Assembly (NCBI GenBank): GCA_026874595.1
Contig: CM049306.1
Location: 25,907,519 to 25,971,518 of the forward strand
Direction of reading: 5' to 3'
DNA length: 64,000 bases
Origin: Sipunculus nudus
Lineage: Eukaryota; Annelida; Sipuncula; Golfingiida; Sipunculidae
In this document: in pieces, positions 8,875-63,409 of the stretch
Position numbering within the stretch: position 1 is the stretch's first letter
Layout: each line of letters starts with the position of its first letter
Notes under the pieces: generated by a model
What the model saw: only the letters and a program-made list of their open reading frames with translations
Database searches by the model: none
Told to the model about the DNA's origin: nothing
Position numbers and translations under genes: made by a program

Positions 8875-11246
8875 AGGGTTCTAATGTTCACTCTGGGAAT
8901 TACTGTGCAATTTGGCAAGTGATTAAAAAAAAAGAATGTGAAAATACCATTCATTCCTTTCCAAGTAGACATTGTCCTATTGCACAAGGTAGGTGGTGCC
9001 ACCTATCTGGTTTATGAGAAAACTTTCCAAGATGACTGCACATGCCAAATTTCAGACCAATACTCCTGAGATATGAGCAATTTTCACCCAAAGCAAATGT
9101 AAGAATGGACACCACAGGAAAATTATTGCAGATGGCGCCACCAGTCTTGTTTACGAGATGGAGGTGACGAAGATCTATGGCTATGCACAATTTCAACCCA
9201 ATACACTGAACAAACACTAAGACGATCAGATGGCAAATGCAAAGTTGGACACTCCGCAAAAAGTATTGTAGGTGGCGCCACCTGTCTGGTTAACGAGAAA
9301 ACTTTCCTAGGTGGATAGACATGACAAATTTCAGATCAATACACTGAACCACTCCTGAGATTGAGGGTTGTTATATATAAAAGAAACCCAGGTTTGTACT
9401 GCAGAGAAAGGTTCTCCATCATTGTTACCTTCAACTACATAGGTGAGGGTACAAGTATGCCAGGTTTTGGAAAGATCAGTCCAAGGGTCGTAGAGGAGAC
9501 TCTGTTTTTGTGGATTTTAACAAATAAATACTTAATGACATATTTTGGATAAAAGCAGAAAACACCATTACAGCCTGCTGAAAGTAGCTAAACAGGTGGC
9601 GCCACCTGGAGGTCAAAATCATTAAGGAGTCACATGATCAATATTCCTGTGTAATTTGAAACTGAAGGCTGCAGCAGTTCCTAAGATATTTGGTAACAGA
9701 CAATACATCATGTATAGAAACACATCAACATGCATCTGTAGATATGCCATCTTGAAAATCACTTGACTGAATTTATACTCAAATTATTCCTCTTCCTCTT
9801 ATTACTTTATGACTTATCTTGAAAGAAGTGGAAAGTAACATTTTGTCCCACAGAAAGTAGGTCAACATAGCTGGCGCCACCTGGAGGTCAAAATCATCTG
9901 GCAGTCACATGATCAATATTCTTTTGAAATTTGAAACTGAAGGCTGCAGCAGTTCCTAAGATATTTGGTAACAGACAATACATCCTGTATGGAAACACAT
10001 CAAGTTGCTAAATTTTGCAACCCACACAATTTGAAGTACTGTAGAGATGCCATCTTGAAAATGATTTGACTGAATTTACACACAAATTATTCCCCTTCCT
10101 CTTAGGAACTGCTGACTATGATATGAAGGCCAAATTATTAATATTTTGTGACTTATCTTGAAAGAAGTGGAAAAGATCATTTCTTCCCGCAGAAAGTAGG
10201 TCAACACCGGTGGCGCCACCTGGAGGTCAAAATCATTTAGCAGTCACATGATCAATATTCCTGTGAAATTTGAAACTGAAGGCTCCAGCAGTTCCTAAGA
10301 TATTTGGTAACAGACAATACATCCTGTATGGAAACACATCAAGCTGTCATACTTTGCGATCAACAGAATCTGAAGTTACGTAGAGACGCCATCTTGAAAA
10401 TGACTTGACTGAATTTATACTCAAATTATTCCCCTTCCTCTAAGGAACTGTTGGCTATGATATGAAGGCCAAAATATCAATACTTTGTGACTTATCTTGG
10501 AAGAAGTGGAAAAGACCATTTTTTCCCAAAGAAAGTAGGTCAACACAGGTGGCGCCACCTGGAGGTCAAAATCATTTAGCAGTCACATGATCAATATTCC
10601 TGTGAAATTTGAAACTGAATGCTGCAGCAGTTCCTAAGATATTTGGTAACAGACAATACATCATGTATACATAGAAACACATCAAGCTGTCATACTTTGC
10701 GATCGACAGAATTTGAAGTTCTGTAGAGACGCCATCTTGAATATGACTTGACTGAATTTATACTCAAATTATTCCCCTTCCTCTAAGGAAGGCCAAAATA
10801 TTAATACTTTATGACTTATCTTGAAAGAAGTGGAAAAGATCATTTAATCCCGCAGAAAGTAGGTCAAGATAGGTGGCGCCACCAAAAGCTTATTTTTGCA
10901 TGTCCATCCCATGATCAGTAATTCTGCAAAGTTTCATGAAGGTAGCTGATGTGGCTGTTGAGATATTTGGTAACAGACGGTGGACGGTGGACAGTTGACA
11001 GTGGACAGTGGACAGTGGACGGCGGACGCTGCGCCATGGCATAAGTTCACAGAGTGAACTAAAAATTTGGTAGGAGATCTTGAAGACTTCTAACATAATG
11101 CCGAATTTTGGATTCCTAGGTCTTACGGTTTTAAAATATGCCACATCTACGGATGGACGGACAGCTGGACGGACGACGGACAGCTGGATGGACGACGGAC
11201 AATGGACCACGACTTTAGCTCAGATAACTTACAGTCAGCTGAGCTA
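8875..11246 (-). mobile_element. Helentron-like element beta, copy 1
   Basis: The right end (5' in element orientation) reads TTTTTAGCTCAGCTGACTGT on the minus strand. Near the left end the minus strand shows a small hairpin (ACCC-t-GGGT) followed by CTCTTG and a run of T. This matches the layout of Helentron/Helitron2 non-autonomous elements: 5' end, internal array, 3' hairpin, T-rich target. Toward its 5' side it carries ACGG/ACAG-rich sequence (10978-11030, 11155-11205). No Rep/helicase coding region is present, so it would depend on an autonomous relative. It interrupts the intron between exons 6 and 7 of the CCDC66-like gene. Confidence 0.6.
9271..10883. repeat. Tandem array in beta copy 1, unit about 330 bp, each with GGTGGCGCCACC
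   Basis: Exact GGTGGCGCCACC occurs at 9271, 9595, 10209, 10548 and 10872, with near matches at 9131 and about 9871. From 9595 on, each palindrome is followed by TGGAGGTCAAAATCAT, CACATGATCAATATTC, TGAAACTGAAGGCT and GATATTTGGTAACAGACAA. Units are about 275, 339, 339 and 324 bp long. Confidence 0.85.
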
Positions 11247-11250
11247 AAAA

Positions 11251-11512
11251 TCCATCGTATTCCCTTTGGGCTATGGCCTGTGAAAGAAAATCACTGATTG
11301 TGCTCTGGTGGCCATATTGAATTTTTTGCGGTCCTGAAATTCGATAGGGACAGAGCCCTCCTAGACACCAATCATCCCTGTTGATTTGAGAAACAGCCAT
11401 TGTATTCTCTTTGGGAAATCATGCGCAAAAGAAAGCGTCACTGACGGAAGGACAGACGGACACGTTTATCACTATAGGGCACCGCTTTTTCAAAGCAGGG
11501 CCCTAATAAATG
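11251..11512. repeat. Single unit of the 145-bp repeat family with an element end
   Basis: It resembles the three units at 2470-2850. The right edge (about 11476-11512) has AGGGCACCGC-TTTTTC-AAAGCAGGGCCCTAATAAA, which folds on itself and resembles the 5' ends of the other Helitron-like elements read on the minus strand. No matching 3' end was found. Confidence 0.5.
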
Positions 11513-11591
11513 ACATAAGAAATACCAGGTGGTACAAATATTAAGTATTTGTTTAATCTCTTTCTTCAAAGACAAACATACATCCACCTAC

Positions 11592-11746: not shown

Positions 11747-11819
11747 CTGAAATATAATAATATATCTGTTATATTGACTGTACACCTCAGGTCTAAATGA
11801 AATAAGTTTCATATATATC

Positions 11820-12595: not shown

Positions 12596-15219
12596 ACAAG
12601 GGACCTATGGGTCACGGCGCTCTGCTGTTATATATGATAAAAAATATGATTTAGATATGATTCACATGCTGGTTTTGTGTGGTAATAAATATAAGCTGTA
12701 TTATGAGTTGTTGTTGTTTAGCTTATGTATGATTTTGATAGTATCTTTGGAGACAGGGAAGAGGATTGATTTCATTTATTTTATTAACAAATGGAGTACT
12801 ATTGTCACACAGATTTTGACTTGGCCATATAACTTATAAGCAGAACATATAATATAAGAGTTTAACTATTTATTAAAAAAATTACAAATATTGTCCCAAA
12901 TATAATTTTTATTAAAATAATAAGAGAATCTTATGATTTTTTAAAATGAAATATAACTGAAATAAGTACATATTGAAATGATTATTAAAATAATATTAAA
13001 AAATATATTCATGAATGCATTCATGAATACATTTTGAAAGTATTTGCACTGGTATTCATATAATTTCATTTTTACCTGAATTCCAATTCTTTATGCAAGA
13101 AATTATATAATGGAGTACATATTCATAATCGTATTTAAATATAATTGCAAATTATTTGCACCATGTCTGGTATTTATTCAGTTTTCACCAAACAATGATG
13201 TTGAGAATCCAGAATATACAAAATTAACACATTTAAATAATGATCATAAGTACCTGGTTTTATGGCTTTTATTTATATTTAAAAAAAATAAACGTAATAT
13301 ATTCAATTTGGACTAATTTCACATTAATGTACACACTAGACACAGTAGGAATCTAGATTAATATTATCAACTGCATCTTTGTTTATCATTAATTTCCTTC
13401 ATACGATCCCCAATCATTAGTAATGAATAATATGATTTACTTTTTTATCATTAAAATTGAATTATTGTGTTATTTGGAATACATGACATTTTATCCGTCG
13501 ATACAAGATTCTTATATCATCAGTAACTGCAAGTTAATTTCCTGTTATTATAAACTAACAAATTCCTTTTTTAATTTTCTTTAATTTGTTATTAAAAGCC
13601 AATAAAAATTTATTAATTTACTGTTTATTGTTATGTTGTTGGTTAAAACTACTATATGAGTTGGGTTGGACACCTGGATCAACTGTGGCTGGCCATAAGC
13701 TGCCTGGCTGCCTCAGTGTATGCCTCGCCCAAAGCATGCATAATTTGCTGAAAGTTCAACAAGGTCAACATACAGGTGACTCAAGAGGGGCTGGAGAGGG
13801 CCAAGGTCTGACATGGTCTCATAGAAACATTAACAAAAGCTACAATTTTTGGCTAATTTCTTTCAGCTTTCTAAACTAAAAAGCTGAAATCCTTATGTGT
13901 GCATGATATGAAAATTATATCAACAGTGCTCACAGGAAACAAACGTGCCACGGTCAAAGTTGAGCAAAATTTAAGGTACTAATTTTATATTTATACTAAT
14001 AACTTATAAAATTTGAAAAATTCAGAACTAATTTTGGGTATTCAATTGAATCTTGATTAAATAATGTTACATCCCTGACAAAAAAATCTCTAGCTTCAGC
14101 AATCTCCTTGTTAAGGGAGTAAATATATTTCTTGATTTTTTACAAAGTGCATTATGTTTGGGCCCATAACTAAAAACAATTACACAATACTGACATCATT
14201 TCTGACATGTGCATAGAGAATGTATAGAAAAATATGTATATTATATATGATTAAAGTTAGATCAGTTGTTTTGATATTAGGCAGTCTTAAGTGTAACAAT
14301 GGGTTTTTAATGGAAAAATGAAGTTTTTCAATAATATCTGAAAGGTATTAAGTCCTAGTGACCAAATTCTTGGCATGGTAGGGGATTTTGGAGACATCTA
14401 ATTGTATGCCAAATTTTAGGAACTGAGAGCTGAAGCTGGGGAGCTGAGCTTTTGCAATCTGCATAACACTAGCTTGATGTAAACAATATGTTACATGGTG
14501 TTTGAAAACTTGAATAAAATCTACAGTTTTTGATCAACTGGTTTCAAATTTTTGGTGTTAACAGACAAACTGCTAACAAAAACATGCTGTGAAAATTAAA
14601 TCCACAGTACTTACAGGAAAAAAACGTGCCATGGTCAAAGTTGGGGTAAATTTAAGGTACCAACTTTTTATTTTTGTTAATATTTTAACAAATTTAAAAG
14701 ATTTTGATCTAATTTTGGGTATACAATTTAATTTTGATTAATTAAAGTTATATTACTGGAAAAAAAGTCCACAGCTTTAACATGTTTGGTGTTAAGTGAT
14801 CAAATATCTTTCCTGATTTTTTACAAAATGCATTATGTTTGGGCCCATAACTTTTTTAAATTAAATAATACAGACATAATTTCTGGCATGTACATAGGAA
14901 CTATATAGAGGAATATTTATGGTAAATATGAGGAAAAACAGATGAGTTGTTTTGATATTAGGCAGTCCTGAAGTGTGAAAATAGGTTTTTTAATAAAAAA
15001 TTGAGGTTTTTCCTTAATTTCTCAAAGAAACGAAGTCGCAAAGACCCAGTTTTCGGTTTGGTAGGAGATCTTGGGGACATCTAACATTATGCCGAATTTT
15101 GGATTCCTAGGTCTTACGGTTTCAAAATGTGCCACATCTACGGACGGACGGACAGATGGACGGACGACCGACAATGGACCATGACTATAGCTCAGATGAC
15201 TTATAGTCAGCTGAGCTAA
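12596..15219 (-). mobile_element. Helentron-like element beta, copy 2
   Basis: The minus-strand 5' end is TTTTTAGCTCAGCTGACTAT (15219 downward), preceded internally by a (GGAC)n-like stretch (15140-15175). The 3' end near 12596 reads, on the minus strand, GACC-CATA-GGTC, then CCTTG and T. Inside are two units of the delta repeat, about 690 bp apart (13940 and 14628). The segment 15050-15219 is very similar to 11075-11246 of copy 1, confirming one family. No transposition protein is encoded. Confidence 0.6.
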
Positions 15220-15289
15220 AAATCAGAAAACACAGTGTTTTGACAATGGTGAAAAGAATATTCAGTTACTATTAATAAAATGACTGTAC

Positions 15290-19146: not shown

Positions 19147-19436
19147 CTGTGTGTCATTGAAAATTGCATAAAAATTAATAGCAGTTACATCTAGAGAGAC
19201 AATGACCCAATTTATCTGGCCAATGTTTAGTGGGACCAGTACTGATTATAAATAAACAAGTGACCCATGGGTCATGACGCTCAGCTGACTGGGAAGAGAT
19301 TCACAAAAGGAAATTTTATCATTAGAATGGTAGATACCCATTCAACTGAAGCATCAAACAGATTAACCAACAGGCAAAGATTTAGTCTGTATTTATATAT
19401 CTGAAAAATAGAGAAAAAATGTGTAAACTTTAAAAA

Positions 19437-20779
19437 CTAGAATACGGGTAGCCGACAAGTGACTACGTGTATCTGCCAAAATCAGAGTGAAGTGAGGCAC
19501 GGATTGAGTGGCAAGGGGAAACAGAGTGAGTTATGTTGCATATTAGCATGGATGTCTGCAGCCTAAATGTGTATGTAGGTTGTGCAACCTACCACAAATC
19601 CAGAAAGCTGTCCAAGTTGTATACATATGCAAAATTTTAGGCAGTTATGTCAAACCACTACAGAGAAATGAGTGATTTTAGGCCATAGCAGACAAACAGA
19701 CAGACGCTGGCAAAATGTGCAAAAATGGTTGCAGGTGGCCCCTCCAGTTTTGTGTATGATAAAGACCTATGTGAGATCTATACACATGCAAAATTTTGGC
19801 CCAATCGTTCAAACGGTTCCCGAGATATGAGCTTGGATGTCTGCAGCATAAACTAGAATAAAGGTGGCGCCACCTGTCATAAAATCAAGAAAGCTATCCA
19901 GGATGTATAAAACTGCAAAATTTTAGGCAGATATGTCAAACCACTGCCAAGATGTGAGTGACTTTATTGCACGGCAGACAAACAGACAGACGCTGTGCAA
20001 AAATGGTTGCAGGTGGTGCCACAAGTTTTGTGTATGATAAAGAGCTATGTTAGATCTATACACATGCAAAATTTTGGCCCGATCGGTCAAACGGTTCCCG
20101 AGATATGAGCTTGGATGTCATCAGCGTGAACGTGAATGTAGGTGGTGCCACCTGTCATAAAATCAAGAAAGCTATCCAGGATGTATAAAACTGCAAAATT
20201 TTAGGCAGATATGTCAAACCACTGCCGAGATAACAGTGACATTATTGCACGGCAGACAAACAGACAGACGCTGTGCAAAAATGGTTGCAGGTGGCGCCAC
20301 CAGTTTAGCGTATGATAAAGAGCTATGTTAGATCTATATACATGCAAAATTTTGGCCCGATCGGTCAAACGGTTCCCGAAATATGAGCTTGGATGTCATC
20401 AGCGTGAATGAGAATGTAGGTGGCGCCACCTGTCATAAAATCAAGAAAGCTATCCAGGATGTATACGCATGCCGAATTTCAGGTGAATTAGTCAATTCAC
20501 TGCAGAGATATGAGTGATTTTAACCAAAGGCAGATGAACAGATGGACACTGTGCAAACATGGTTACAGGTGGCGCCACCATTTTTTGTGTAATTTATAGA
20601 GCTAACCAAGGGCTACATTAGTATAAATTTTATTTCCTGATCAGTCAAAAGGTTCCCGAGATATGAGCTTGGAAAGCTGAATAAATCAAGTCCCAGAGGA
20701 GCTCTCTGGAAACGAAAGCGGCAACGGCGGAGGAACCCTGTCAAAAACATAGTATCCACAAAACTTCGTTTTGGCGGGT
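19437..20779 (-). mobile_element. Helitron-like element alpha, copy 3, nested in beta
   Basis: On the minus strand it begins near TACCCGCCAAAACGAAGTTT (mutated from the TATCCGCC of the other copies). It ends with a stem GTAGTC-acttgtc-GGCTAC, then CCGTATTCTAG|T. The CTAG|T terminus, a nearby hairpin and insertion next to T are Helitron hallmarks. Internal units of about 280 bp carry GGTGGCGCCACC at 19863, 20290, 20419 and 20568. The flanks (AAAATAGAGAAAAAATG and AAAATACAGGTGGC) are the two halves of one beta repeat unit, which shows the insertion point. Confidence 0.75.
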
Positions 20780-20783
20780 ACAA

Positions 20784-23700
20784 AAATACAGGTGGCTCCA
20801 CCAGTCTGCAGAAACTAATAAAAACACTTACAAACATCAATATCCATGCAAAGAATCATGGTGATCTCCCCATTAGTTGTTCAGATACTTCAGCTTTTGT
20901 ATCAAATTGTCCATTATTCTGAGGGATACTTCGGAGTCCTATAGCTTGAAGGATATGGGTAACAGAGACCTAATTTTAAGTTTCCACAGGCACTTTTCAT
21001 GGGCCTTCTTGCATGACAAGAATGAAGATTCTAGGTCCAGTTGTTGCGATTTGTACCCTGTTGACAGATAACCACATCTTTAAAGGTATCAAAAAGAGAG
21101 AAAAAAAATCGTAAAAATTTGAAAAAATAGAGGTGGCGCACCCAGTCTGCAGAAACTGATGGAACAGGTCATGATCAATATGTATGCCGAAAATCATGAC
21201 CATCAGTGTTGTAGTTATTGAGATACTGCAGTTTTTGTATCAAATTTTCCATTATTCTGGGGGGTAATTTGGAGCCATACAGCTTAAAGAATATGGGTAA
21301 CAGAGACCTAATTTCAGGTTTCCATGGAGACTTTTCATGGGTCTCCCTGTGTGTCAAGAATGAAGATTCTAGGTCCAGTTTTAATGATTTGTGCCCTGTT
21401 AACAGATGTTCATAACTTTAAGGTCTCAAAAATAGAGAAAAAATTCGTAAAAAAACCCCAACAAATACAGGTGGTGCCACCAGTCTGCAGAAACTGATGA
21501 AACACTCCATGATCAATATCCATGAAAACAATTATGGTGATCTCTGCATTAGTTGTTCAGATACTTCAGCTTTTGTATCAAATTTTCCATTATTCTGAGC
21601 TGTACTTTGGAGTGCCATAGCTCAAAGGATATGGGTAACAGAGACCTAATTTCAGGTGTCGATGGAGACTTATCATGGGTCTCCCTGTGTGTCAACAATG
21701 AAGATTCTAGGTCCAGTCCTTACGATTTGTACCCTGTTGACAGATAACTACATCCTGAAAGGTCTCGAAAATAGAGAAAAACAAGTGACCCAGGGGTCAT
21801 GACGCTCAGCTGACCAGGAAGACATTGACAAAAGTAATTTTATCATCTGAATGTCAAATTTGAATGAAACACTTTTTCCAAACTTGACCTTTTGTATAAA
21901 ATCATCCAATATTCACTGGGGTACTATGGAGCTCTGTAGCATGAAGGATATGGGTAACAGACACCTATTTTCAAGGTTTACAAGATGACTTTTCAGGGGT
22001 CTCCCAGCATGTCGAAAAATAAAAATCTAGGTCCAGTTATTATGATTTGTGCCCTGTTAACAAATCCAAATGTTTATTCTGGGGGGTATTTCAAAGCCGC
22101 ATAGGATGAAGGATATGGGTAACAGAGATGTAATTTCAGGTGCACAAGGAGACTTTTCAGGGGCCTCCCAGCATATCAAGAAAGGAGATTCTAGGTCAAG
22201 TCATTATAATTTGTGCTCTGTTAACAGATGACCAAATCTTTATTCTGGGGAGTACTTCGGAGCCCCAGAGCATGAAGGATATGGGTAACAGGGACCTTAT
22301 TTCGGGTTTCCATGTAGACCTTTTATGGGCTTCCCTGGAGGTGAGGACAGAAGATTCTAGGTCCAGTCATTATGATTTGTGCCCTGTTAATATATGACCA
22401 AATCTTTATTCTGGGGGGTACTTCTGAGCCCCATAGCTCACAGAATATGGGTAACAGGGACCTTATTTCGAGTTTCCATGTAGACCTTTTATGGGCTTCC
22501 CTGGAGGTGAGGACAGAAGATTCTAGGTCCAGTCATTATGATTTGTGCCCTGTTTACAGATGACCAAATGTTTAAAGATCACAAAAGTAGAGAAAAAAAT
22601 CGTAAAAAATAAAAAAAATATAGGTGGCACCACCAATCTCCAGAAATTGACGAAACACTCCATGATCAATATCCATGCAAAGAATCATGGTGATTAATGC
22701 ATTAGTTGTTCAGATACTTTAGCTTTTGTATATTTGCATTATTCTGGGGGGTACTTCAGAACCCCATAGCTCAAAGAATATAGGTCACAGTGACCTAATT
22801 TCAGGTTTACAAGGAGAATTTCCATAGACCTCCCAGGATTTCAAGTAAGAAGATTCCCAGTCTAGCGGTTACGATTTGTGCCCTGTTAACAGACAGACGC
22901 CTGGATGGCCGGACGGACGACGTACAAAAGGTGATCCCTACAGCTCAGATGACTTTCAGTCAGCTGAGCTAAAAATTGAAAAAATACAGGTGGTGCCACC
23001 AGAATGCAGAAACTGATGAAACATTTCATGATCAATATCCATGCAAAGAATCATGGTGATCAATATAATAATTGTTCAGATACTTGAGCTTTTTGTAACA
23101 GAGACCTAATTTCAAGTTTTTAAGGAATCTTTTCATGGGCCTCTCAGCATGTCAAGAGAGAAGATTCTAGGTCCAGTTGTTACGATTTGTGCCATGTTAA
23201 CAGATGACCGCATCTTATGAGGTCTCAAAAAAAGAGAAAAAAATTCGTAAAAATAAAAAAAATACAGGTGGCGCCACCATACTGCAGAAACTGATGACAC
23301 ATTCCATGCTCAATATCCATGCAAAGAATCATGGTGATCACTGCAATAGTTGTTTAGATACTTGAGCTTTTGTATCAAATTGTCCATTATTCTGAGGGAT
23401 ACTTCAGATGACTTACAGTCAGCTGAGCTAAAAACACTTAATGGTCAATATCCAAGCAAAGAATCATGATGATCTCCGTATTAGTTGTTCAGATACTTCA
23501 GCTTTTGTATCAAATTGTCCATTATTCTGAGGGATACTTCAGAGTCCTATAGCTTGAAGGATATGGGTAACAGAGACCTAATTTCAAGTTTCCACAGGCA
23601 CTCTTCATGGGCCTCCTTGCATGACAAGAATGAAGTTTCTAGGTCCAGTTGTTGCAATTTGTACCCTCTTGATAGATAACATGGGTTGCGCCACCAGTCT

Positions 23701-25050
23701 GCAGGAACTGATGGAACATCTCATAATCAATATGTATGCCAAAAATCATGACCATCAGTGATGTAGTTATTGAGATATTGAAGTTTTTGTATGTAATTTT
23801 TGACTACTCTGGGGGGGTACTTTGGGTCCCCATAGCTCGAAGGATATGGGTAACAGAGACCTAATTTCTGGTTTCCATGGAGACTTTTCATAGGTCTTCT
23901 AGTGTGTTGAGAATGAAGATTCTAGGTCCAGTCGTTACTATTTGTGCCATGCTAACAGATGACAGCATCCTTAAAGGTCTCAAAAATAGAGGAAAAAATC
24001 GTAAAAAAATCTAACGATACAGGTGGCGCCACCAGTCTGCAGGAACAGATGACACATCTCATGATCAATAGTTATGTAACAAATCATGACCATCGTTCAA
24101 GTAGTTAATGAGATATTGAAGTTTTTGTATGAAATTTTTGACTACTCTGGGGGGGGGGGGTACTTTGGGGCCCTATAGCTCGAAGGATATGGTTAACAGA
24201 GACCTAATTTCTGTTTTCCAAGGATATTTTTCAAAGACCTCTCAGTGTGTCAAGAATGAAGATTCTAGGTCCAGTCGTTACGATTTGTGCCATGCTAACA
24301 GATGACAGCATCCTTAAAGGTCTCAAAAATAGAGGAAAAAATCGTAAAAAATCGAACAATAAAGGTGGCACTACCAGTCTGCAGGAAGTGATGACACATC
24401 TCATGATCAATAGTTATGCCACAAATCATGACCATCAGTCAAGTAGTTAATGAGATATTGAAGTTTTTGTATGAAATTTTTTACTTTTCTTGGGGGTACT
24501 TTGGGGCTCCATAGCTCGAAGAATATGGGTAACAGAGACCTAATTTCTGGTTTCCATGGAGACTTTTCATAGATCTCTCAGTGTGTCAGGAATGAAGATT
24601 CTAGGTCCAGTCTTTACGATTTGTGCCTTGTTAACAGATGTTTACATTTTGAAAGATCTCAAAAATAGAGAAAAAAATTCGTAAAAAATTGAACAATACA
24701 GGTGGCGCCACCAGTCTGCAGGAAGTGATGGAACATCTCATGATCAATATGTATGACAAAAATCATGACCATCAGTCAAGTATTTAATGAGATATTGAAG
24801 TTTTTGTTTGAAATTTTTTACTTTTCTGGGGGGTAGTTTGGGGCCCCATAGCTGGAAGGATATGGGTAACAGAGACCTAATTTCTGGTTTCCATGGAGAC
24901 TTTTCATAGGTCTCTCAGTGTGTCGAGAATGAAGATTCTAAGTCCAGTCATTACGATTTGTGCTTTGTTAACAGATGTTCACATTTTTAAAAGTCTCAAA
25001 AATAGAGAAAAAAATTCGTAAAAAAATCGAAAAATACAGGTGGCGCCACC
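20784..25050. repeat. Tandem array of beta copy 3, unit about 338 bp
   Basis: Units begin with AATACAGGTGGCGCCACCAG and TCTGCAGGAACTGATG. They contain ATATGGGTAACAGAGACCTA, GAAGATTCTAGGTCCAGT and GATTTGTGCC. Exact GGTGGCGCCACC occurs at 23267, 24022, 24701 and 25039; variants occur near 20786, 21131, 21470, 22622, 22987, 23685 and 24364. Several frames across these units look open only because the unit is AT-rich and repeated. Confidence 0.85.
21781..22971 (-). mobile_element. Helentron-like element beta, copy 4, nested in copy 3
   Basis: The left end ACAAGTGACCCAGGGGTCAT and the inverted GCTCAGCTGAC (21804-21814) match the left end of copy 3. The right end CAGTCAGCTGAGCTAAAAA is at 22953-22971, preceded by GGACGG-type sequence. 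The host sequence GAAAATAGAGAAAA on the left and TTGAAAAAATACAGGTGG on the right reconstitutes one normal unit, so this is a clean insertion of about 1.2 kb. Confidence 0.7.
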
Positions 25051-25311
25051 AGTCTTCAGGAACTGATGGAACCTCTCATGATCAATATGTATGCCAAAAA
25101 TCATGACCATCAGTCAAGTAGTTAATGAGATATTGAAGTTTTTGTATGAAATTTTGGACTTTTCTGGGGGGTACTTAGGGGCCCCATAGCTCGAAGGATA
25201 TGGGTAACAGAGATCTAATTTCTGGTTTCCAAGGAGATTTTTCATGGACCTCCAAGGATGTCAAGTAAGAAGATTCCAGTTTTAGCGGTTACGATTTGTG
25301 CCTGGTTAACG

Positions 25312-25376
25312 GACAGACAGACGGCACGACGGACAGACAGACGGACAGACAGACAGACAGACGGACGACGGACAAA
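25312..25376. repeat. ACGG/ACAG minisatellite
   Basis: GACAGACAGACGG-type tetranucleotides are repeated next to the 5' end of beta copy 3. Equivalent stretches occur by the 5' ends of copies 1, 2 and 4, so it is a built-in part of the element. Confidence 0.85.
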
Positions 25377-25835
25377 GAGTGATCGCTATAGCTCAGATGA
25401 CTTTCAGTCAGCTGAGCTAAAAAATATGCATTAAGGCAGTTACATGGGTATTACAATCTCATATAGTTATTACTGCCTTTAAATATTTCAATTTTTATGG
25501 AAATTACTATATATAGTTATTTCTTTGGGTTTCTCAGGAATATCACCTGAGATTGGAATTCAAATATTTTAACATGTATGCAAAAGGTTATCTGTGTATT
25601 TGGTTGCCGGTAATGTAGGATTGATGCTGGATTTTATATTGTACAGTTTAGATATTTATAAAGCTGTATGAGGCACTTATTAAGATACAGTGATATTTTA
25701 TATGAGTATACAGCATATTGAAAAAAAAAGAAATATAATTTTTAAAATCACAATCATTTTCAGATAAATCTTAGATAACTGATCCAGCATGATTGTAATA
25801 CAATGTATTGTATGTTACACATATATCACTGATAC

Positions 25836-44690: not shown

Positions 44691-45960
44691 ACACGTGAGC
44701 TGGTGTTCTAACGATTCGGTTTGACCTTTTCTCTTTACTGCGTACGTCCGCGCGTCTGTTTTGTGTGAAAATTACACATATCTCACGGGTGTTATGATGT
44801 ATTGGTGTAATATTTTGCATTTTTTGGATAATTTTATCTTGTACACAAGACTACCGGCAAGACCTATCAACGTTTTCGTGTGGTGTATCGGTGTGTCCAT
44901 TTTGGGCGAAAAACAACATATCTCAGGAGTGGTAAAATGTGTGGCAAAGATCATGGTTAGCTTTCTATAGTGCATAATACTGGTGGCGCCATATAAAATC
45001 GTTTAACGAAGCAATCATCTACACTCATATCTTATGGGTGCTATGAATTATTGGCTTGAAATTCTGCATGTACACATACCTTGAATATGGGAATTTCATA
45101 ATAAAACGCCCATAATTGTTTTGTCTAGCATATATCCGTGTATATATCTCCAGAGTTATTTTATGCACGGGACTGGTGGCGCCATTTACATATCGTTTAC
45201 GAGTGGCGCCCCTCCATGTGAATATTTGGGGGGATGGATTTCGCACATATCTTAGGAGTGGTACAATTTTCATAGGTTTTTGGTAGCCTTTCAAAGGGAT
45301 GGAGCCACCTACGATTGTTTTCCCGTAGCGACCATGCATGTATCTTAGGAGTGGTAGGATGTAATGGGATGAAATACTGCATTTACATAAATTTTAGATC
45401 GCTTAATTTGGGACATGTGACTCGTGGCGCCACCTATATCGATTTGTGCCCCCCCCCCCCCCATGCGTCTATTATGGACAAATCACTCATACTTATCTTG
45501 GGTTAATAATCATGTATAGTTTTGGTATGCAGAAGACAGATGGCGCAACCTACACTCGTTTTACGTAGCGTCTATCTCCGCACATATCTCAGCAGTAATT
45601 AGATGTATTTCCCTGAAATTTCGCATTTCCATATATCTTGGACGGCTTGACCTCATGTACAGGACTTCAATCGTACACAAGGCTGCAATTGTTCCTGCGA
45701 GGCATCCGTCGGTGCGTCTATTTTTTTTATAAATTCACACAAATCTCCAAAGTGGTTTAATATTAAGGCCTGAAATTTTGCATACCGGTATCCATACATT
45801 GGGTAGCTTTATATCGTACGTAAAACTGGTGGTACCACCAGTTATTGTTTTTGCGTGCAGTCTATCTGTGTGTCTATTATGAGTGTAAATCACTGATATC
45901 TTGTTCTTATTCTTAGTTACCAGTATCCTCTGGACATGACTAGTGGTGTCATCCGTGTAG
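44690..45960. repeat. Diverged tandem array with GGTGGCGCCA motifs
   Basis: Units of roughly 130-180 bp share CATATCTCAGGAGTGGTA, GAAATTTTGCAT, and ACTGGTGGCGCCA or GTGGCGCCACC. Motif positions include 44982 (CTGGTGGCGCCATAT), 45173, 45203 and 45424, with a decayed GTGGTACCACC at 45829. It is more decayed than the alpha and beta arrays, and no termini were found. A poly-C run at 45448-45462 interrupts it. Confidence 0.6.
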
Positions 45961-54316: not shown

Positions 54317-54396
54317 TAACATTTTTATTTTTTTAAAATTAAAGGCAAAATATAAACCTGCACTGATAGCAAGAAATAAATAACTTTGTTATTTTT

Positions 54397-56090
54397 AGCG
54401 AACCTGTGAGCTTATGCGATGGTGTGGTGTCGTCCGTCGTCTGTATGTTAACCTATACTATCTTGAAAACGGCAAGAATTAGCATCATCAAATTTTATGC
54501 ATAAAATGAGTCATCTAAAAAACTCTATGGGATTTTGCTTATTTTTTGGCTAACTGCATTTTCTTAGATTTTATAGGGAAAAAGCTAAAAAAGTTTAAAA
54601 AATCTTCTTCTCAGAATCTGTTCAGCCAAATTGTCCAATATTTTACAGAAATGATTTCTGGAACAATCTGTCTCAAGTTTGTTCGAATGGACTAAGTTCG
54701 GTGATATTTGGCCGAGTTACAGGAAGTTGAACTTAGTCATCTGTCCAAAAAAGCATACTAAAATTACAATCTCAGAAATGGCTTGAGCTATCATCACCAA
54801 ATTTTATGCCAATGTTGGTCATATGAGTCATATCTGAAATTGAGGTATTGGTGGCGCCACCTGCATCGGCCTTTTTTGTACAGGGGTCATCAGTGCCCGT
54901 ATCAAACTGAAGTCTACAAATAACTTCTTCTCTGAAACGATATGGCCAAATTGTTTAATATCGCACAGAAATGATTCTAGGGTAGTGCTTTCTGAAGTTT
55001 GTTCAAATGGACTCAGTTCAGTGACTTTTGGTTAAGTTATGGGAAGCTGAATTGAGTCATATGACATAGCAGCCGAGTTTTAGCTAAGTGGCTAAAAAAT
55101 TTTCTTCTCAAAAACCACTGGGCCAAATTCTTAAATCTCACACATTAATTATCCTTAGATGTTGACAATTCAAGTTTGTTCAAATGGTCTCAGTTCAGTG
55201 ACTTTTGGCTAAGTTATGGGAAGCTGAATTTAGTCATATGCCGTAACAGCCCATTTTAGCTAAGTGGCTACAAAAATCTTCTTCTGAAAAACCACTGGGC
55301 CAAATTTTTAAATCTCACACATTAATTATTCTTAGATGTTGATAATTCAAGTTTGTTCAAATGGTCTCAGTTCAGTGACTTTTGGCTGAGTTATGGGAAG
55401 CTGAATTAAGTTATATGCCATTACAGCCCATTTTAGCTAAGTGGCTACAAAAATCTTCTTCTCAAAAACCACTGGGCCAAATTCTTAAATCTCACACATT
55501 AATTATCCTTAGATGTTGATAATTCAAATTTGTTCAAATGGTTTTGGTTCAGTGAATTTTTGCTGAGTTATGGGAAGCTTAACTTAGCCATTTTGCTGTA
55601 TTTTCCCATATGCGTTATAAACCTGTAAAACAATTTTTGACTGATGCCACTGAGGCCAATTTGTTTAATATTTTACAAGAATAATTCCCTGAATAATTCT
55701 AATAATAATTGTCTATTATGGTTCCAAAGAATGAATTTTGGCTGAATTATAAAGATTGAATTGAGTTATTTTACCAGGTTAGCTGTGTGAAGCAGATACA
55801 TCTAGCCTGGCACCAGTTTATCAGCATCCGTTGCATCATGCCTCTATAGACATTTAGATTTCAGGTTATCTGTGGTTAATATTGACAAGAATGTTTTTTT
55901 AAAAGCTTTTAAAAAATGTAGATTCATGATTTTAGATATTTCTCATGCCAGGCAATCTCTGTGGATAAAGACAGCTGTACATGGATTATAAATAATTGGT
56001 AACCATACTCAACTCAGTTCAAGATTTTTCCATCAGTGAGATGTATCTGTATTATAATTTTGCATTCAGTATGCATCTGTAGTAATTTTT
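54397..56090 (+). mobile_element. Helentron-like element epsilon, 5' part of a first copy
   Basis: It starts TTTTTAGCGAACCTGTGAGC. The same 5' end recurs at 56091, while only one 3' end exists (58587). This is therefore either a 3'-truncated copy or the outer part of an element into which a second copy inserted. It contains GGTGGCGCCACC at 54850 and three 183-bp units (near 55070, 55253 and 55437) with ACCACTGGGCCAAATT and CTCAGTTCAGTGACTTTTGG. Confidence 0.6.
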
Positions 56091-58587
56091 AGCGAACCTG
56101 TGAGATAATGTGTTGATGTGGCAGTGTCCATCCTCTGTACGTTAACCCATACTTTTTTGTAAACAACTGGAGCTAGCATCATGAAATTTAATGCAAAAAA
56201 TTAGCCATCTGAAAAATTCTGCATTTTCTTAGAATTTTTAGAAAAAAGCTAAAAACCTTTAAAAATCTTCTCCGACGAAACTGTCAAGCCAAATTATTCA
56301 ATATTTCACAGAAATAATCTTTTATACCATCTCTCTCAAATTTGTTCGAATGGTTCAAGTTCAGTGAATTTTGGCCAAGTTACAGGAAGTTGAACTTCGT
56401 CATCTGTCCAAAAAAGCACACTAAAATGACAGTCTCAGAAACGGCCAGAGCTATCATCACCTAATTTTATGCCAGTGTTGGTCACATGAGTCATATATGA
56501 AATTCAGGTATTAATGGTGCCACCTGCATTGACCTTTTTTTGTACAGGGGTCATTGGTCATCTGTACATTAACCAATAATTTCTCAGGAATAGCAGGAGC
56601 TACCAGCCCCAGATTTTATGCAATAAACTGTCACATATAAAATTTTGTGGGATATAGCTTATATTTTTGCTATCTGCATTTACTTAGATATTATAGGGGA
56701 AAAGCTGAAAACTTTTAAAAGTCTTCTTGTAAACGGTCCAGCCAAATTTTTCTATATTCAACAGAAATGATCCCAGAGGCAAGCCCTCTCAAGTTTGTTC
56801 AAATGGTTTGCATTTGATGAATTTTATTGGCGTTACATGAATTTGGCCAAGTAAGCATACTGACAAAGTAATCTCAGAAATGACAGAAGCTAGCATTACC
56901 AAGTATTGTGCAAATGATGGTCACATGACTCATATTTGAAGTTGCAGATTCTGTGGTGCCACCTACATTGACCTGTTTTTTATGGGCAAAACCTCACAAT
57001 TTTAGCCTCTTTCAGCTTGAAATGTTTATATTGTTCAATTTTTCAAAAGAACTGTCCTAGGACATGGTTCTTTCAATCATATTAGAAAAGCTTAAGTTGG
57101 TCTTATGGCCATTATTATGTCTATTTCAAACTGAGGACTGCAAAACTGTTCTTCTACAAAATGATTGTTTCAATTATAACTTCTGTAACATTGCACAAAA
57201 ATTATTCTTTGGTGGCCTTTGTTCAAGTTTACTTGAATGATTTTTGGCAGAATTATTGGACCTTTAACAATAAAAGGACTGCATCTTTTATTATTCTAGA
57301 TATTTTGATAACAAGTTTATGAATATGTCACCTTGAAAAAAAAGCATTTTAGCCAAAGTCTTTTAGTATGTGTAAACAGTTATACCAACAGGCCAAGATT
57401 GTGCATCTTTAAATAGGTTGAGAAACTGCCAAGTGTTTCAGATTGGGCAACAGATCAAGAGTTCATTCAGTGCAGCCAGATATAGGTCAAGAGTTCAATC
57501 AGTGCAGCCAAGCACAAGGCATGTGATCATCTCATGGGTGACATGTGAACACCTCATGGGCACCATGTGATCACTTCATGGGTGTCATGCCCCTCAGGGC
57601 AGGGCCCCTGCATGAGCTTATGCAAAGGTGTGGCTACTATTTCAGATTTGGCAACAGGCTAGAGGTCAGTCTGGATCTATTTATAGCTCTGTCAGACTGC
57701 CAACTGTATCAGATTAGGCAACAGGTCAAGAGTTCACTCAGTGCAGCCAGGTATGGGTCAGGAGTTCACTCAATGCAGTAGCTGCATTCTATTTATAGCA
57801 TTAGCAGACTGCATACTGCATCAGATTTGACACCAAAGTTCAGCCTGGATCTATTTATAGCTTTGGCAGAGTGCCAACTGTGTCAGATTATGCAACAGGT
57901 CAAGAGTTCACTCAGTGCAGCCAGGTACAGGTCAAAAGTTCAATCAGTCTAGCCAGGTGCAGGTCATGAGTTCACTCAGTGCAGTAGACTGAGCCAGCAA
58001 ATTTGTCACAGTTCACTCGGGGCAACTGCCTTTCTCACCTAAGCCTGGTCAGCCCCATGCATCAGACTCCAGGTAAGTTTGTATATTAGCCTGATATTTT
58101 AACCTATGTGTCTTTGATGGCTTTCACAAGACAGGTGTCGCCACCTACAATGACTTTTGCACAGTGTATGTGCCTGCTTATTTCTACAGAGGAATTTGAT
58201 ATATCAGCCTGAAATTGGGCATATGCATACTTATCAAATAGCTTTGTCAAATTCAAGACTGGTGGTGCCACCTACAAATATTTTTTTGCACAGTGTGTGT
58301 CCCAGCTTATTTTCAGGAGGGGTTTGATATATCAGTCTGAAATTAGGCATTTGTATATATCTCAGGTAACTTTGTTGTATACAAGACTGGCGGTGCCAGC
58401 TACACTCATTTTTGTGTTGTGTGTACCCATGCCAGAATTTCAGCAGTGATGTTTGTGTAATTGTTTCTTATTCAGAATGTTTAGTACTTGCATTGTTCAT
58501 ATACATGAGATGTAATGGTCCAGCATTGAAGTATTATACCTGGTGTATTTCCATATGCACAGGTTCGCATTAGGCCTGTAGGCCTTG
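56091..58587 (+). mobile_element. Helentron-like element epsilon, complete non-autonomous copy
   Basis: The 5' end AGCGAACCTGTG and the subterminal inverted CACAGGTTCGC (58558-58568) form a perfect 11-bp asymmetric inverted repeat. Just beyond it is the hairpin AGGCCT-gt-AGGCCT, then TG|TTT. The layout equals that of beta (19256-25420). About 2.5 kb, no Rep/helicase. Confidence 0.7.
57420..58010. repeat. Degenerate tandem repeat, GTCAAGAGTTCACTCAGTGC
   Basis: GTCAAGAGTTCACTCAGTGC with variants occurs about eight times (57465 to 57990), alternating with CTGGATCTATTTATAGCT and GCCAACTGTGTCAGATT. It sits inside epsilon near its 3' side. Confidence 0.7.
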
Positions 58588-59000: not shown

Positions 59001-60693
59001 ATGCCCCCGCCACAAAGTGGCCGGGGCATATAATTTTACCCATGTCTGTCATTCCGTCATTCCGAAATCAAACAGTTGTACGGACTTTTTTTCGCAATGC
59101 CTGCAGCTATTGGCCTGATTTTTTGTGTGTGGGCAGATAATGACCGGTTACAGATTGAGTTCGCGTTTTGTCCCGGTTGACCTTCTTTTGATCATTTTAC
59201 GGCTCCTAAACTTAGAAAATTTCATGGAAAAAAGAAATTTTCATGACAAATACACATGTACAGGCTTTTTTTCGCAATGCCTGCAGATATATTGGCCTGA
59301 TTTTTGGTGTGTGGGCAGATAATGACCAGTTACAGATCGAGTTCTCGTTTCGTCCCGGTTGACCTACTTTTGACCGTTTTACAGCTCCTAAACTTAGAAA
59401 ATTTCATGAAAAATAGAAATTTTCATGACAAATACACATGTACGGACTTTTTTTGGCAATGCCTGCAGATATATTGGCCTGATTTTTGGTGTGTGGGCAG
59501 ATAATGACCAGTTACAGATTGAGTTTGCGTTTCGTCCCGGTTGACCTACTTTTGACCGTTTTACGGCTCCTAAACTTAGAAAAATTCATGAAAAATAGAA
59601 ATTTTCATGACAAATACACATGTACAGCCGTTTTTAGCCCTCAGCTGACAGGCTAATGGGCTATTGTCGTCACCCAAGCTGTCCGTCTGTCCATCTGTCT
59701 GTCCGGTGTCAGTCTGTCCGTCCGTCCGTTCCGTGTCTGTTAACTTTTACCTTGTGAGCGGGATATCTCTAAAAGGATTCACCGTTGGAATTTTATTTCA
59801 TCAGTGAAGATGTATATCGATAAAATCTCGGTCAAGTTCGAAGATGGGTGACCTTGATCCATTTTTCTACATTTTAGAGCTGATTATAGAAAAACACTCA
59901 GAAGTTTATATCTCAGGAACCATTGTGTGGATTTTCACAAAACTTACTATGATCATTGGGACTGATGGTCTGTATGTGCTGCACAATTTTGGTGCCACCT
60001 GCAATTTCTGATTTTTTAATGGAATTTTATCGGATTTTTTCAATTTTGGCCTTTTGTGCAGGATATCTCCAAAGGTATTCAACACAGGAACTTCATTTCT
60101 TCAGTGCCATTGCATTATATTTACAAAATCTTGGTCAAGTTCAAAGATGGGTGATCTTGACCTACTTTTCAAGGTCACAGAGCTTAGTATAGAAAAAAAC
60201 TTAGGAGCTTATTTCTCAGGAAGCATTTGATGGATTGTTATGAAACATGGTATATACCTCTCCAATTTAAATTTATAAATGATTATCAACTTTTGCTTAT
60301 ATTCTAGTTTCGCAATACAATGCTTACAGATACTGGCCTAATGTTAAGTCTGTGGGCTCATAATGACCACTTACAGATCAAGTTCACGTTTTGTCCCAGT
60401 TAACCTATTTTTCACCATATGACAGATCCTGAACATAGAAAATTTCATGAAAGACAGAAATTTTCATGAAAAATGCACATATATGGATATTTTTTCACAA
60501 TGCCTGCAGATACTGGCCTGATTTTTGGTGTGTTGCTTGATAATGACCCTTTACAGATCGAGTTTGCATTTTGCCCTTGTTGACCTCCTTTTGACCATAC
60601 AACACTTCCTGAACTTAAAAAATTTTACAAAATTTAACAAATGTTTCTAATTTGCCCCAGGCGGGGGCATTCGTGTCGTTCCGACACATCTAG
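59001..60693 (+). mobile_element. Helitron-like element zeta
   Basis: The 5' end ATGCCCCCGCC (59001-59011) is perfectly inverted at 60660-60670. Then come the hairpin GTGTCG-ttc-CGACAC (60673-60687) and the terminus ATCTAG|T. A second 5' stem is seen in GCCAC-aaa-GTGGC. It holds three 182-bp units starting near 59088, 59268 and 59452 (CGCAATGCCTGCAGATATAT, GTGTGTGGGCAGATAATGAC), with diverged ones after a nested insertion. No coding capacity. Confidence 0.75.
59637..60308 (+). mobile_element. Nested element fragment with AGCCCTCAGCTGAC start
   Basis: TTTTTAGCCCTCAGCTGACA resembles the 5' end of beta. It is followed by GTCCGTCTGTCC-type sequence, as in beta read from that end, and by two units with GGATATCTCTAAAAGGATTC / GGATATCTCCAAAGGTATTC. 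Zeta resumes at TTCGCAATACAATGC. The 3' border is set only by where zeta resumes. Confidence 0.5.
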
Positions 60694-61110
60694 TTTTTCA
60701 TTGTATCGCCAGACATAATCTGGAGATACTATGGTTTAGGCACGTTTGCGCCGCCGCCGCCGCCTTTGAGAGTGGCTTTGACCTTGAATATTACCATATA
60801 TGGTGAAAATCACATAAAATCATGAATATCTTAAAAAGGGATGCATGGATTGGTCCAAAAATCAAGTTGACGGAAGATCTTGGATAGTTTTGTCTTTTGC
60901 AGAAGATAGGTGGCGCCACCTGTTGTCCTTTTCTTGTTTTTTTGCGCCTTTGAATACCCCATCATTGCCACTTGACAGTATATACTGTGAGCCTTATAAG
61001 TCAAACAGTAATGGACAGATTTCTTTCATGTTATGCATGTATATAGATATGGTTTATGGAATGAGGTATATTTAAATTTAAATTTAATTTTAAAATTTAA
61101 TTTAATTGTA

Positions 61111-63409
61111 TCCGCCAAAACGAAGTTTTGCGGATACTATGTTTTTGACCGGGTTCCGCTGCCGCCGCCGCCGCCGCGTTCGTTTCCGGAGAACTCCTCT
61201 GAGACTACTGGACAGATTTTTCCGAAACTTACACAAATTATCGGGTCACATGTGAACTGGTGCCTAACCAAGTGACCTTGACCTCTGACCTTTCGTCCCT
61301 GCCCAGTGTCCGTTTGTGCGTCTGTTTCCACACATAAACCCATATATCTCGGGAACCGTTTGACCGATCCGGAAAATTTTTTTACACAAATGTAGCCCTG
61401 GGATAGCTTTATAACATACACAACAAAAGGTGGTGCCACCTGCAACCATTTTTGCACAGTGTCCATCTGTTCATCTGCCTGGGGTTAAAATCACTCATAT
61501 CTCTGCAGTGGTTTGACTAATTCACCTAAAATTCGGCATGCGTATACATCCTAGATAGCTTTCTCGATTTTATGACAGGTGGCGCCACCTACATTCACGT
61601 TAACGCTCCACACATAAACCCATATATCTCGGGAACCGTTTGACCGATCCGGAAAAAATTTTTACACAAATGTAGCCCTGGGATAGCTTTATAACATACA
61701 CAACAAAAGGTGGCGCCACCTGCAACCATGTTTGCACAGTATCCATCTGTTCATCTGCCTGGGGTTAAAATCACTCATATCCCTGCAGTGGTTTGACTAA
61801 TTCACATAAAATTGGGCATGTGTATACATCCTAGATAGCTTTCTCGATTTTATGACAGGTGGCTCCACCTACATTCACGTTAACGCTCCACACATAAACC
61901 CTTATATCTCGGGAACCGTTTGACCGATCCGGAAAAATTTTTTACACAAATGTAGCCCTGGGAATGCTTTAAAACATACACAACAAAAGTTTGCGCCACC
62001 TGCAACCATGTTTGCACAGTGTCCATTTGTTCATCTGCCTGGGGTTAAAATCACTCATATCTCTGCAGTGGTTTGACTAATCCACCTAAAAATCGGCATG
62101 CGTATACATCCTAGATAGCTTTCTCGATTTTATGACAGGTGGCGCCACCTACATTCACGTTAACGCTCCACACATAAACCCATATATCTCTGGAACCGGT
62201 TGACCGATCCGGAAAAAAATTTTACACAAATGTAGCCCTGGGATAGCTTTATAACATACACAACAAAAGGCAGCGCCACCTGCATCCATGTTTGCACAGT
62301 GTCCATCTGTTCATCTGCCTGGGGTTAAAATCACTCATATCTCTGCAGTGGTTTGACTAATTCACCTAAAAATCGGCATGCGTATACATCCTAGATAGCT
62401 TTCTTGATTTTATGACAGGTGGCGCCACCTACATTCACGTTAACGCTCCACACATAAACCCATATATCTCTGGAACCGGTTGACCGATCCGGAAAAAAAT
62501 TTTACACAAATGTAGCCCTGGGATAGCTTTATAACATACACAACAAAAGGCAGCGCCACCTTCATCCATGTTTGCACAGTGTCCATCTGTTCATCTGCCT
62601 GGGGTTAAAATCACTCATATCTCTGCAGTGGTTTGACTAATTCACCTAAAATTCGGCATGCATATACATCCTAGATAGCTTTCTCGATTTTATGACAGGT
62701 GGCGCCACCTACATTCACGTTAACGCTGCAGACATCCAAGCTCATATCTCGGGAACCGTTTGACCAATCAGGAAAAAAAATTACACAAATGTAGCCCTTG
62801 GATAGCTTTATAACATTCACAAAAATGGTGGCGTCACCTGCAGCCATTTTTACACAGCGTCCATCTGTTTGTCTGCCTTTGGTTAAAATCACTCATATCC
62901 CTGCAGTGGTTTGACCAAATTCCCTGAAATTCAGCATGCTTATACATCCCGCATAGCTTTCTTGATTTTATGACAGGTGGTGCCACCTACATTCACATTC
63001 ATGCTGTAGACATCCATGCTTATATCTCCCGACTCATTCAACCAATCAGGAAAATTTTTTTACACAAATGAAGCCCTTGGATAGCTTTAAAACATACACA
63101 AAAATGGTGGCGCAACCTGCAGCCATTTTTGCACAGCGTCCATCTGTTTGTCTGCTGTGGGATAAAATCACTCATATCTCTACAGTGGTTTGACTTTTCC
63201 ACATCAAATTTTGCTTGTGTATATATCTTGGATAGTTTCAAATAACAGGTGGCGCCACCTACAATCATGTTTATGTGGCAGAGATCCGTTCTAATATTTA
63301 ACACATGTAACTCTATATCCCCTTGCCACTCAATCCATGCCTTACTTCACCCGTCCTTCTCTGATTTTGGCGGATACACGTAGTCGCTTGTTGACTACCC
63401 GTATTCTAG
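61111..63409 (+). mobile_element. Helitron-like element alpha, copy 1 (best preserved)
   Basis: It begins A|TCCGCCAAAACGAAGTTTTG, whose first 28 bases fold into a near-perfect hairpin. The 5' GTATCCGCCAAAA is inverted near the 3' end as TTTTGGCGGATAC. A hairpin GTAGTC-gcttgtt-GACTAC (63380-63398) and CTAG|T (63406-63410) complete the Helitron signature. Length is 2299 bp. The interior is almost entirely a 280-bp tandem array; no Rep/helicase gene is present. Confidence 0.82.
61430..63259. repeat. 280-bp tandem array in alpha, two palindromes per unit
   Basis: GACAGGTGGCGCCACCTACA recurs every 280 bp (61578, 61858 variant, 62138, 62418, 62698, about 62974 variant, 63248). Half-way between, CAAAAGGTGGCGCCACCTGC or variants occur (61430, 61709, about 61990, 62270, 62550, 62826, 63107). 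Other landmarks are CATATATCTCGGGAACCGTT and TGTAGCCCTGGGATAGCTTT. Confidence 0.92.

Follow-up and report, generated by a model that had tools for sequence, protein, structure and literature searches.

A CTCF-core-like palindrome on the central repeats of HINE-like elements in Sipunculus nudus

We analysed a stretch of 64,000 nucleotides of the genome of the sipunculan annelid Sipunculus nudus (C1:25,907,519-25,971,518 of a 1.43-Gb genome; hereafter the window), in which the 12-bp palindrome GGTGGCGCCACC recurs in several families of tandem repeats. The motif is real and extreme in its abundance, it is constrained in the repeat lineage that we call F1, and it is carried by elements of an already known type, which resemble HINEs, i.e. 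non-autonomous Helentrons. As a tentative explanation, in which our confidence falls somewhat short of even, we propose that the palindrome may be a CTCF-type site on the central repeats of HINEs, selected for its predicted recruitment of a host CTCF-type protein.

Abundance of the palindrome

The original prediction listed 23 exact copies in the window, and all of them were confirmed. The near copies that it placed in 44690-45960 and near 58140 and 58260 were also found, at 44.98-45.83 kb, 58134 and 58261 (within two mismatches). The window contains 55 sites with at most two mismatches, against 0.56 expected. The mean number of exact copies in 100 dinucleotide-preserving shuffles of the window was 0.00, which bears out the estimate that chance would supply far fewer than one. 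Counted genome-wide against a control, as had been proposed, the palindrome yielded 111,729 exact copies versus 14 of the same word read backwards, which is likewise palindromic and of the same letter composition. The shuffles and the reversed-word count rule out chance or base composition as the origin of these numbers. In a ranking of the 12-mers of the window and of 170 kb from 17 other places, restricted to words that contain seven or more G/C and no fewer than three different letters, the commonest were AGGTGGCGCCAC (95), CAGGTGGCGCCA (72) and the palindrome (59).

Not all arrays carry the motif: those at 2489 (146 bp), 21937 (166 bp), 54995 (177 bp) and 59077 (182 bp) of the window contain no site within two mismatches. 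A search for two AGGTGGCGCCACC at array spacing returned no stretch in the viral_contigs collection and one in genome_contigs; the latter belongs to a bacterial contig with 71% GC and overlapping long frames, and is irrelevant here.

Constraint on the palindrome in the F1 lineage

From the window, 17 other loci and eight fetched loci, 154 sites with at most two mismatches were clustered by their flanks without the palindrome, after removal of duplicate sites where loci overlapped and of sites less than 62 bases from the end of a record. They fell into clusters F1 (93 sites), F2 (22), F3 (14), F4 (7), F5 (2) and F6 (2), with 14 singles. The 23 exact copies of the window belong to F1 (13), F2 (4), F3 (4), F4 (1) and F6 (1), and the 36 exact copies of the 17 loci to F1 (23), F2 (8), F4 (2), F5 (1) or no family (2). 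The F1 unit (consensus 278 bp) comprises two half-units, 129 and 149 bp long, that have diverged from each other.

To compare the palindrome with its surroundings, 246 kb were searched with hidden Markov models whose palindrome columns were masked, so that units were found by their flanks alone. The F1A and F1B models converge on overlapping matches, and F1B was used. Rows with gaps at the palindrome were dropped (10 of 110 for F1B, 2 of 44 for F2 and 1 of 15 for F3). Over the 100 remaining F1B rows, identity is 0.897 in the palindrome and 0.731 in the flanks, which ranks the palindrome third of 130 windows; with the F1A model it ranks second, the best other window reaching 0.851. Few boxes of the F1 central repeats are as conserved as the palindrome, which recurs in related families. 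Its identity in the 14 F3 rows is 0.923, against 0.827 for the flanks, and the ratio of palindrome to flank divergence in F3 drops to 0.27-0.46 above a flank divergence of 0.25.

Among F1 pairs with a flank divergence below 0.15, palindrome divergence is 0.142 against a window median of 0.105 (rank 124 of 131). The rank is 6 of 131 at flank divergences of 0.15-0.25, and 2 of 131 at 0.35-0.6 (0.207 against a median of 0.416), where the sole slower window is the palindrome shifted by one base to include the preceding A. These pairs are non-independent, the 93 F1 sites coming from 10 records. Where F1 copies have diverged, the palindrome evolves at roughly half the rate of a typical flank window; close copies show no protection of it as a whole. 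Host selection on every copy is therefore unsupported for the whole palindrome. Deep constraint combined with decay between close copies argues for constraint on the propagating masters: most copies would decay, those that found lineages would keep the box, and constraint would act on the elements that propagate.

Genome-wide, the F1B flanks around any 12 bases match 26,102 places, and the anchors of a neighbouring block match 15,827. In the first 100 listed places of each, the exact 12-mer is present 67 times for the palindrome and 67 times for the neighbouring block. Substitutions amount to 47 per 1,200 cells in the former and 63 per 1,200 in the latter, and the two CpG columns hold 24 of the 47 palindrome substitutions (24 of 200 cells).

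A directional match to the CTCF core

Conservation in F1 is directional and reads YAGGTGGCGCC, which fits the CTCF core YAGRKGGCRS. The letters tolerated in F1 also fit the CTCF core written as YAGRKGGCRSYR: along its successive columns, the 100 F1 rows have Y in 94, A in 98, G in 99, R in 95, K in 98, G in 89, G in 93, C in 84, R in 96, S in 93, Y in 94 and R in 92. A core of the AGRKGGCGC type, as in CTCF binding sites, is present. The asymmetry is marked, with A at position -1 in 98 rows and the mirror T at +12 in 53, and with the first G (G0) in 99 and the last C (C11) in 85. An E-box reading (CAGGTG) is not needed, since position -2 holds T in 49 of the 100 rows and C in 45. Among the 67 exact copies, 62 have A at -1 and 3 more have T at +12; the AGGTGGCGC core can be read in one or other orientation in 65 of them, and in both in 36. 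For comparison, the consensus of fly dCTCF is given as AGGTGGCG (PMC5462476).

The candidate CTCF-type site in F1 units is TGYAGGTGGCGCCACC. In the fixed context TGYA..., the unmutated word occurs 62,948 times in the genome. The G-to-A change occurs 3,025 times at the R position, and 1,321 and 1,551 times at two invariant Gs. The full CTCF pattern CCASYAGRKGGCGC has 2,410 genome matches versus 17 for its reversed form, the first 100 listed being spread along C1; part of this ratio may be due to CpG depletion, because the reversed control has two CpGs and the pattern one. The original prediction had named a host-factor site as one possibility, and such a site is plausible.

The host encodes a CTCF ortholog at C11:67.04 Mb (locus L026), with 56% identity over the fingers and an E value of 5e-109, the next best match having 41%. 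Its open reading frame (ORF) of 887 residues comprises 11 fingers. The contact residues (-1, 2, 3 and 6) of zinc fingers 3, 4 and 5 are identical to those of human CTCF, and finger 7 keeps R(-1) and D(3). Molluscs are reported to have CTCF orthologs, and squid domain borders to carry a CTCF-like motif (PMC10658182, PMC9023564); in one annelid, a CTCF motif is reported as the commonest in open chromatin (PMC7854359). The CTCF query gave 320 genome matches in all, and the listed ones include numerous zinc-finger frames on C16, C7, C9 and C11. These look like a large C2H2 gene expansion, which might oppose transposons.

Proposed function and its implications

The selected function of the palindrome would be the recruitment of the host CTCF-type zinc-finger protein. 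The AGGTGGCGC core would be read on one strand, and on both in about half of the exact copies, where two cores overlapping head to head would give rise to the second reading. Several such sites per array could keep the chromatin of the element open or anchored, to the benefit of its transcription, replication or rolling-circle transposition. A side effect would have been the seeding of more than 100,000 CTCF-core-like sites genome-wide. A broader version, which we consider doubtful, is that masters must keep head-to-head arrays of CTCF cores in order to multiply, and that Helentrons, having planted more than 100,000 sites, far more than the 2,400 or so places that match the full CTCF pattern exactly, could shape or challenge chromatin folding.

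The proposal would offer one answer to the question why Helentron-derived elements retain central repeats with short conserved boxes, and agreement with a named host factor allows a direct test of that answer. If correct, it would mean that the spread of CTCF sites by transposons is not confined to mammalian SINEs (short interspersed elements) but extends to rolling-circle elements of an invertebrate. The comparison of close with diverged copies separates decay at the level of copies from constraint at the level of lineages, and is useful under any reading.

Kinship of the families

The original prediction held that the flanks of the named families do not align, and that unrelated families had reused the palindrome independently. 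Our analyses contradict the first view in large measure. The arrays called beta and eta align over 1,245 bp at 77.7% identity in opposite orientation, the 41-kb array is an F1 array of the same family, and the three opening units of the alpha array are of F1 type, with 72.6% identity over 387 bp to locus L004, 66-76% to L015 and L016, and 95.7% to a similar composite element in L019. Independent reuse is rejected for the F1-type families by these flank alignments. More generally, most family representatives share a framework to the right of the palindrome. By eye, 15-20 variable bases are followed by the same words in the same order, (AGCTATCC)ATGATC or GATCTATA, then CATGCAAATTT, GTCAAAC and TGAGATAT; GATC..ATA and the last three words lie at similar offsets in most representatives.

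Alignments of the arms, judged against 400 dinucleotide shuffles, gave p<0.01 for 20 of 55 pairs of representatives on the right and for 5 of 55 on the left (21 and 5 of 78 when two sites of locus L023 were added). The links between F2 and F3 and between F3 and F1 are weak (z 1.7-2.7). At p<0.01, the right arm of F3 matches solely the 45-kb unit, that of F2 only its own relative F2x and F4, and that of F2x only F2. A laxer single-linkage threshold joined 148 or 149 of the 154 sites; the null was too small for the number of pairs, and this result is not relied on. Based on the shared words, the arm alignments and the flank alignments, we infer that most families descend from one old repeat, to which F2 and F3 likely belong. 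End-to-end kinship thus largely holds for the F1-type families, and weakly for F2 and F3.

The original prediction also raised the transfer of modules between families. In the window and in L019, 140-bp F1-type units adjoin 339-bp F2 units within alpha-type composites. Because alpha mixes both unit types and the 5' ends of F1 differ from those of F2 and F3, some exchange of modules between families is likely. L019 also holds a long F2 array (28-9033) built of 339-bp units; here exact copies are interspersed with recurrent palindrome variants such as GGTGGCGCCAGC, which points to homogenization of variant units. The two L023 sites belong to no family: that at 5230 matches nothing, and that at 4307 matches F1A only (z 3.3). 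At L023:5227-5244 the exact palindrome is lengthened to 18 bp (ATTGGTGGCGCCACCAAT), in a context that resembles a tRNA-type A box by eye (GGTAGAGCATTGG); its flanks showed no similarity to the other family representatives in arm alignments against shuffles.

Anatomy of the carrier elements

In oyster HINEs, a 5' subterminal inverted repeat (subTIR) with an inverted copy precedes a central array, which is followed by a 3' subTIR and then a hairpin (PMC7492417). The F1 elements follow this plan, with a satellite-like tandem array at their centre and a CTAG-type end, and their end signature is TTTTGGCGGATAC plus a CGTAGTCG..CGACTAC hairpin. Three of them lie in the window. Eta (61108-63412, plus strand; both ends found by an end scan, outermost bases approximate) has 280-bp units with two palindrome positions each. 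Scans placed its 5' subTIR GTATCCGCCAAAA at 61108-61120, the inverted copy at 61125-61137, the array at 61327-63195, the 3' subTIR at 63365-63377, the hairpin at 63379-63398 and the CTAG-type 3' end at 63398-63412. Beta (20781-19434, minus strand), delimited by its ends and the alignment to eta, lies directly before the F3 arrays; its 3' end is at 19434-19448, its hairpin at 19448-19467 and its subTIRs at 19469-19481 and 20769-20781 (3' subTIR plus hairpin, 19448-19481). The third element (42496-40809, minus strand), established from its ends and alignments, has its 3' subTIR and hairpin at 40823-40856, and a sequence like that of locus L025 interrupts it at about 41001-41756. The inverted copy of the 5' subTIR was seen by eye in beta, where the scan missed it, and in the 41-kb element.

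F2 and F3 share a different 5' module, of TTTTTAGCTCAGCTGACTG type with an inverted copy, beside a microsatellite (11216-11250 and 25389-25423), and a scan found this module at three further places (15188-15222, 22941-22975 and 23400-23434). The left-module microsatellite is clear in F3 (25309-25374) and alpha (10976-11028), and the F1 left module has merely GCCGCC and GTCCGT..GTCTG stretches. Since the 5' ends of F1 and F2/F3 differ, the palindrome is carried by elements with different ends. The Helitron-like character claimed for the carriers is thus supported, their anatomy resembling that of HINEs.

At least 143 genome matches to Helitron_like_N (PF14214) were found, several of them in open frames of more than 2,200 residues. 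The 3.0 kb 5' and 3.5 kb 3' of one Helitron-type ORF contain other tandem repeats and no ends shared with the HINEs. The repeats are a 69-bp array on the 5' side (L033:879-2213) and an array of ~147-149 bp on the 3' side (L034:29-1068).

Contrary evidence and alternative explanations

A number of observations weigh against a selected CTCF-type site. Within F1, one non-overlapping flank window reaches 0.906 in the F1B alignment, above the palindrome, and at flank divergences of 0.25-0.35 the palindrome ranks 12 of 131. Outside the CpG columns it shows 23 changes per 1,000 cells, fewer than the neighbouring block, so that protection of these columns in single copies may exist. Its rank in F3 is 20 of 130. 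In F2 (42 of 44 rows, mostly from one array) its identity is 0.863 against 0.881 for the flanks, rank 96 of 130; GCTAGCGCCATC replaces it in 10 of the 42 units, and the palindrome/flank ratio is 0.87-1.03 at flank divergences of 0.30-0.40, with no steady fall. F2 therefore tolerates loss of the palindrome. As for the match itself, the S and Y of an upstream CCASY fit in F1, but CCA is absent, with T at -4 (0.91) and G at -3 (0.92), and the right half (ACC) is likewise conserved, at 0.85-0.90, beyond the need of a single core. The excess at the R position is about twofold, the mirror C-to-T change of R being found 1,967 times. Since 21 of the 100 listed R-variant places cluster in two short stretches of C1 (3.70-3.76 and 10.74-10.81 Mb), local amplification may explain part of the R count. 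Finger 6 of the host CTCF keeps only Q(-1) and differs from human at three of the four contact positions. Lastly, the sampled flanks of the Helitron-type ORF, whose element ends were not located, hold no palindrome within two mismatches. Conservation beyond the flanks, on which the selection suggested in the original prediction depends, is thus seen in F1 on average (0.897 against 0.731) and at deep divergence. It is not seen in close copies and F2, in which the palindrome is no better conserved than its flanks.

One alternative is simple descent from a single ancestral repeat whose palindrome is under no selection. In its favour, the families are largely related, close copies are unprotected as a whole and the F2 palindrome (0.863) does no better than its flanks (0.881). 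Nevertheless, we find this explanation quite improbable, as the palindrome ranks 2 of 131 at deep F1 divergence despite its CpGs, and the next 12 columns to its right score about 0.60 on average in that alignment. Constraint that is stronger between lineages than between close copies is also expected of a cis-acting signal for the transposition of the element itself, bound by the Helentron Rep/helicase or another element protein or marking a point of replication or recombination, and the genome does contain Helitron-type open frames of more than 2,200 residues. We nonetheless hold such a signal unlikely, given that F1 and F2/F3 share the word despite different 5' ends, that the sampled parts of one autonomous locus lack it and that it matches a host-factor motif. 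Moreover, Rep signals are expected to lie at element ends and not in central repeats.

The perfect dyad symmetry, and the conservation of both F1 halves above the flank average, would suit a different host DNA-binding protein acting as a homodimer on GGTGGC half-sites. The asymmetry of F1, with A at -1 in 98 of 100 rows against T at +12 in 53, and G0 in 99 against C11 in 85, makes this protein an improbable reader of the site. Finally, the word might spread by array turnover, as a recombination or gene-conversion motif that aids array expansion or monomer exchange. In the mollusc satellite phBglII400, 13 of 16 junctions map to a 12-bp palindrome (PMC5139131); in our window, alpha mixes two unit types and beta abuts the F3 arrays. 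However, the F1 element ends were found at the subTIRs and hairpin, away from the palindrome, and we give a recombination motif very little credence. The preferred reading remains that of a site selected for predicted CTCF recruitment.

Other features of the window

The first part of alpha (8986-9361, plus strand; from alignments) consists of three F1-type units of ~140 bp, with an exact site at 9271 and single-mismatch sites at 8992 and 9131. Its second part, delimited by an array scan and alignments (9524-10978, plus strand), is an F2 array of 339-bp units with one palindrome per unit, at 9595, 9870 (one mismatch), 10209, 10548 and 10872. Scans detected microsatellite-like stretches and the 5'-end module of TTTTTAGCTCAGCTGACTG type, with its inverted copy, at 10976-11250 (minus strand). 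The F3 arrays (20782-25310, plus strand; site scan and clustering) have 338-bp units and 11 sites within two mismatches. They probably represent more than one element, as two further 5'-end modules lie inside. They are followed at 25309-25423 (minus strand; scans) by a GACA/GACGG microsatellite and the alpha-type module.

Clustering and alignment identified an F4 element at 54388-55591 (minus strand), with one palindrome at 54850 beside the palindrome-free 177-bp array. A site scan found a degenerate array at 44690-45960 (minus strand) with six near copies (44982, 45175, 45298, 45423, 45539 and 45828). Its 45828 unit is in the F1 cluster (right arm against F1B, z=9.2) and the other five are singles; an F1 kinship of the rest of this array is suggested by eye only. 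A 128-bp array related to F1 by clustering lies at 58126-58404 (minus strand), with near copies at 58134, 58261 and 58389 (three mismatches); the right arm of the 58261 unit scores z=5.5 against both F1A and F1B. The F6 palindrome at 60909-60920, not assigned to a strand, belongs to a cluster of one unit here and one in L002.

Two repeats devoid of the motif complete the picture. A 180-182 bp repeat without the palindrome fills most of locus L010 (3580-9886) and recurs in the window (59077-59635 and 60400-60625) and in L016. At 26100-26250 and 27428-27772 of the window, palindromic CTGGGC..GCCCAGAT units form another palindrome-rich family, with no GGTGGCGCCACC site within two mismatches. Ten of the window's 29 listed stop-to-stop frames were searched against Pfam, with no match.

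Comparison with known systems

Open-access full-text searches for the palindrome word and its neighbours revealed no repeat or transposon work, as judged by titles. Likewise, in the part of the results covered by titles and abstract openings, the literature that joins CTCF with transposons or bivalves included nothing on Helitrons. The novelty of a CTCF-like box on HINE repeats is provisional, Repbase and supplementary files being outside this search.

By description, not by sequence, the carrier elements resemble Cg_HINE of Crassostrea gigas, with its Cg170-type central repeats (PMC7492417). Shared traits are a left module with subTIR, inverted repeat and microsatellite (the last of these clear in F3 and alpha), a central tandem array, and a 3' subTIR followed by a palindrome that forms a stem-loop. 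Divergent monomers with two shared motifs, and one element with two consecutive related arrays, are further points of likeness. In contrast, the accessible parts of that report mention no CTCF-like box. The bivalve pearl elements (CvA, DTC84) and the BIV160/Cg170 satellites, again likened by description, also have short central arrays whose monomers diverge while short motifs persist, and in DTC84 a palindrome close to the junction of the repeats is conserved, comparable to ours (PMC5139131). Unlike in the present proposal, the sections consulted assign no protein to these motifs.

Rodent SINEs provide the known precedent for the spread of CTCF sites by a transposon (PMC7520972). Like SINE B2-B4, the elements described here are high-copy, non-autonomous transposons that multiply a CTCF-like site. 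The mammalian sites are bound in chromatin immunoprecipitation sequencing, whereas ours are predicted from sequence. The vehicles differ as well, since the sipunculan element is of the rolling-circle type and carries arrays of near-palindromic cores.

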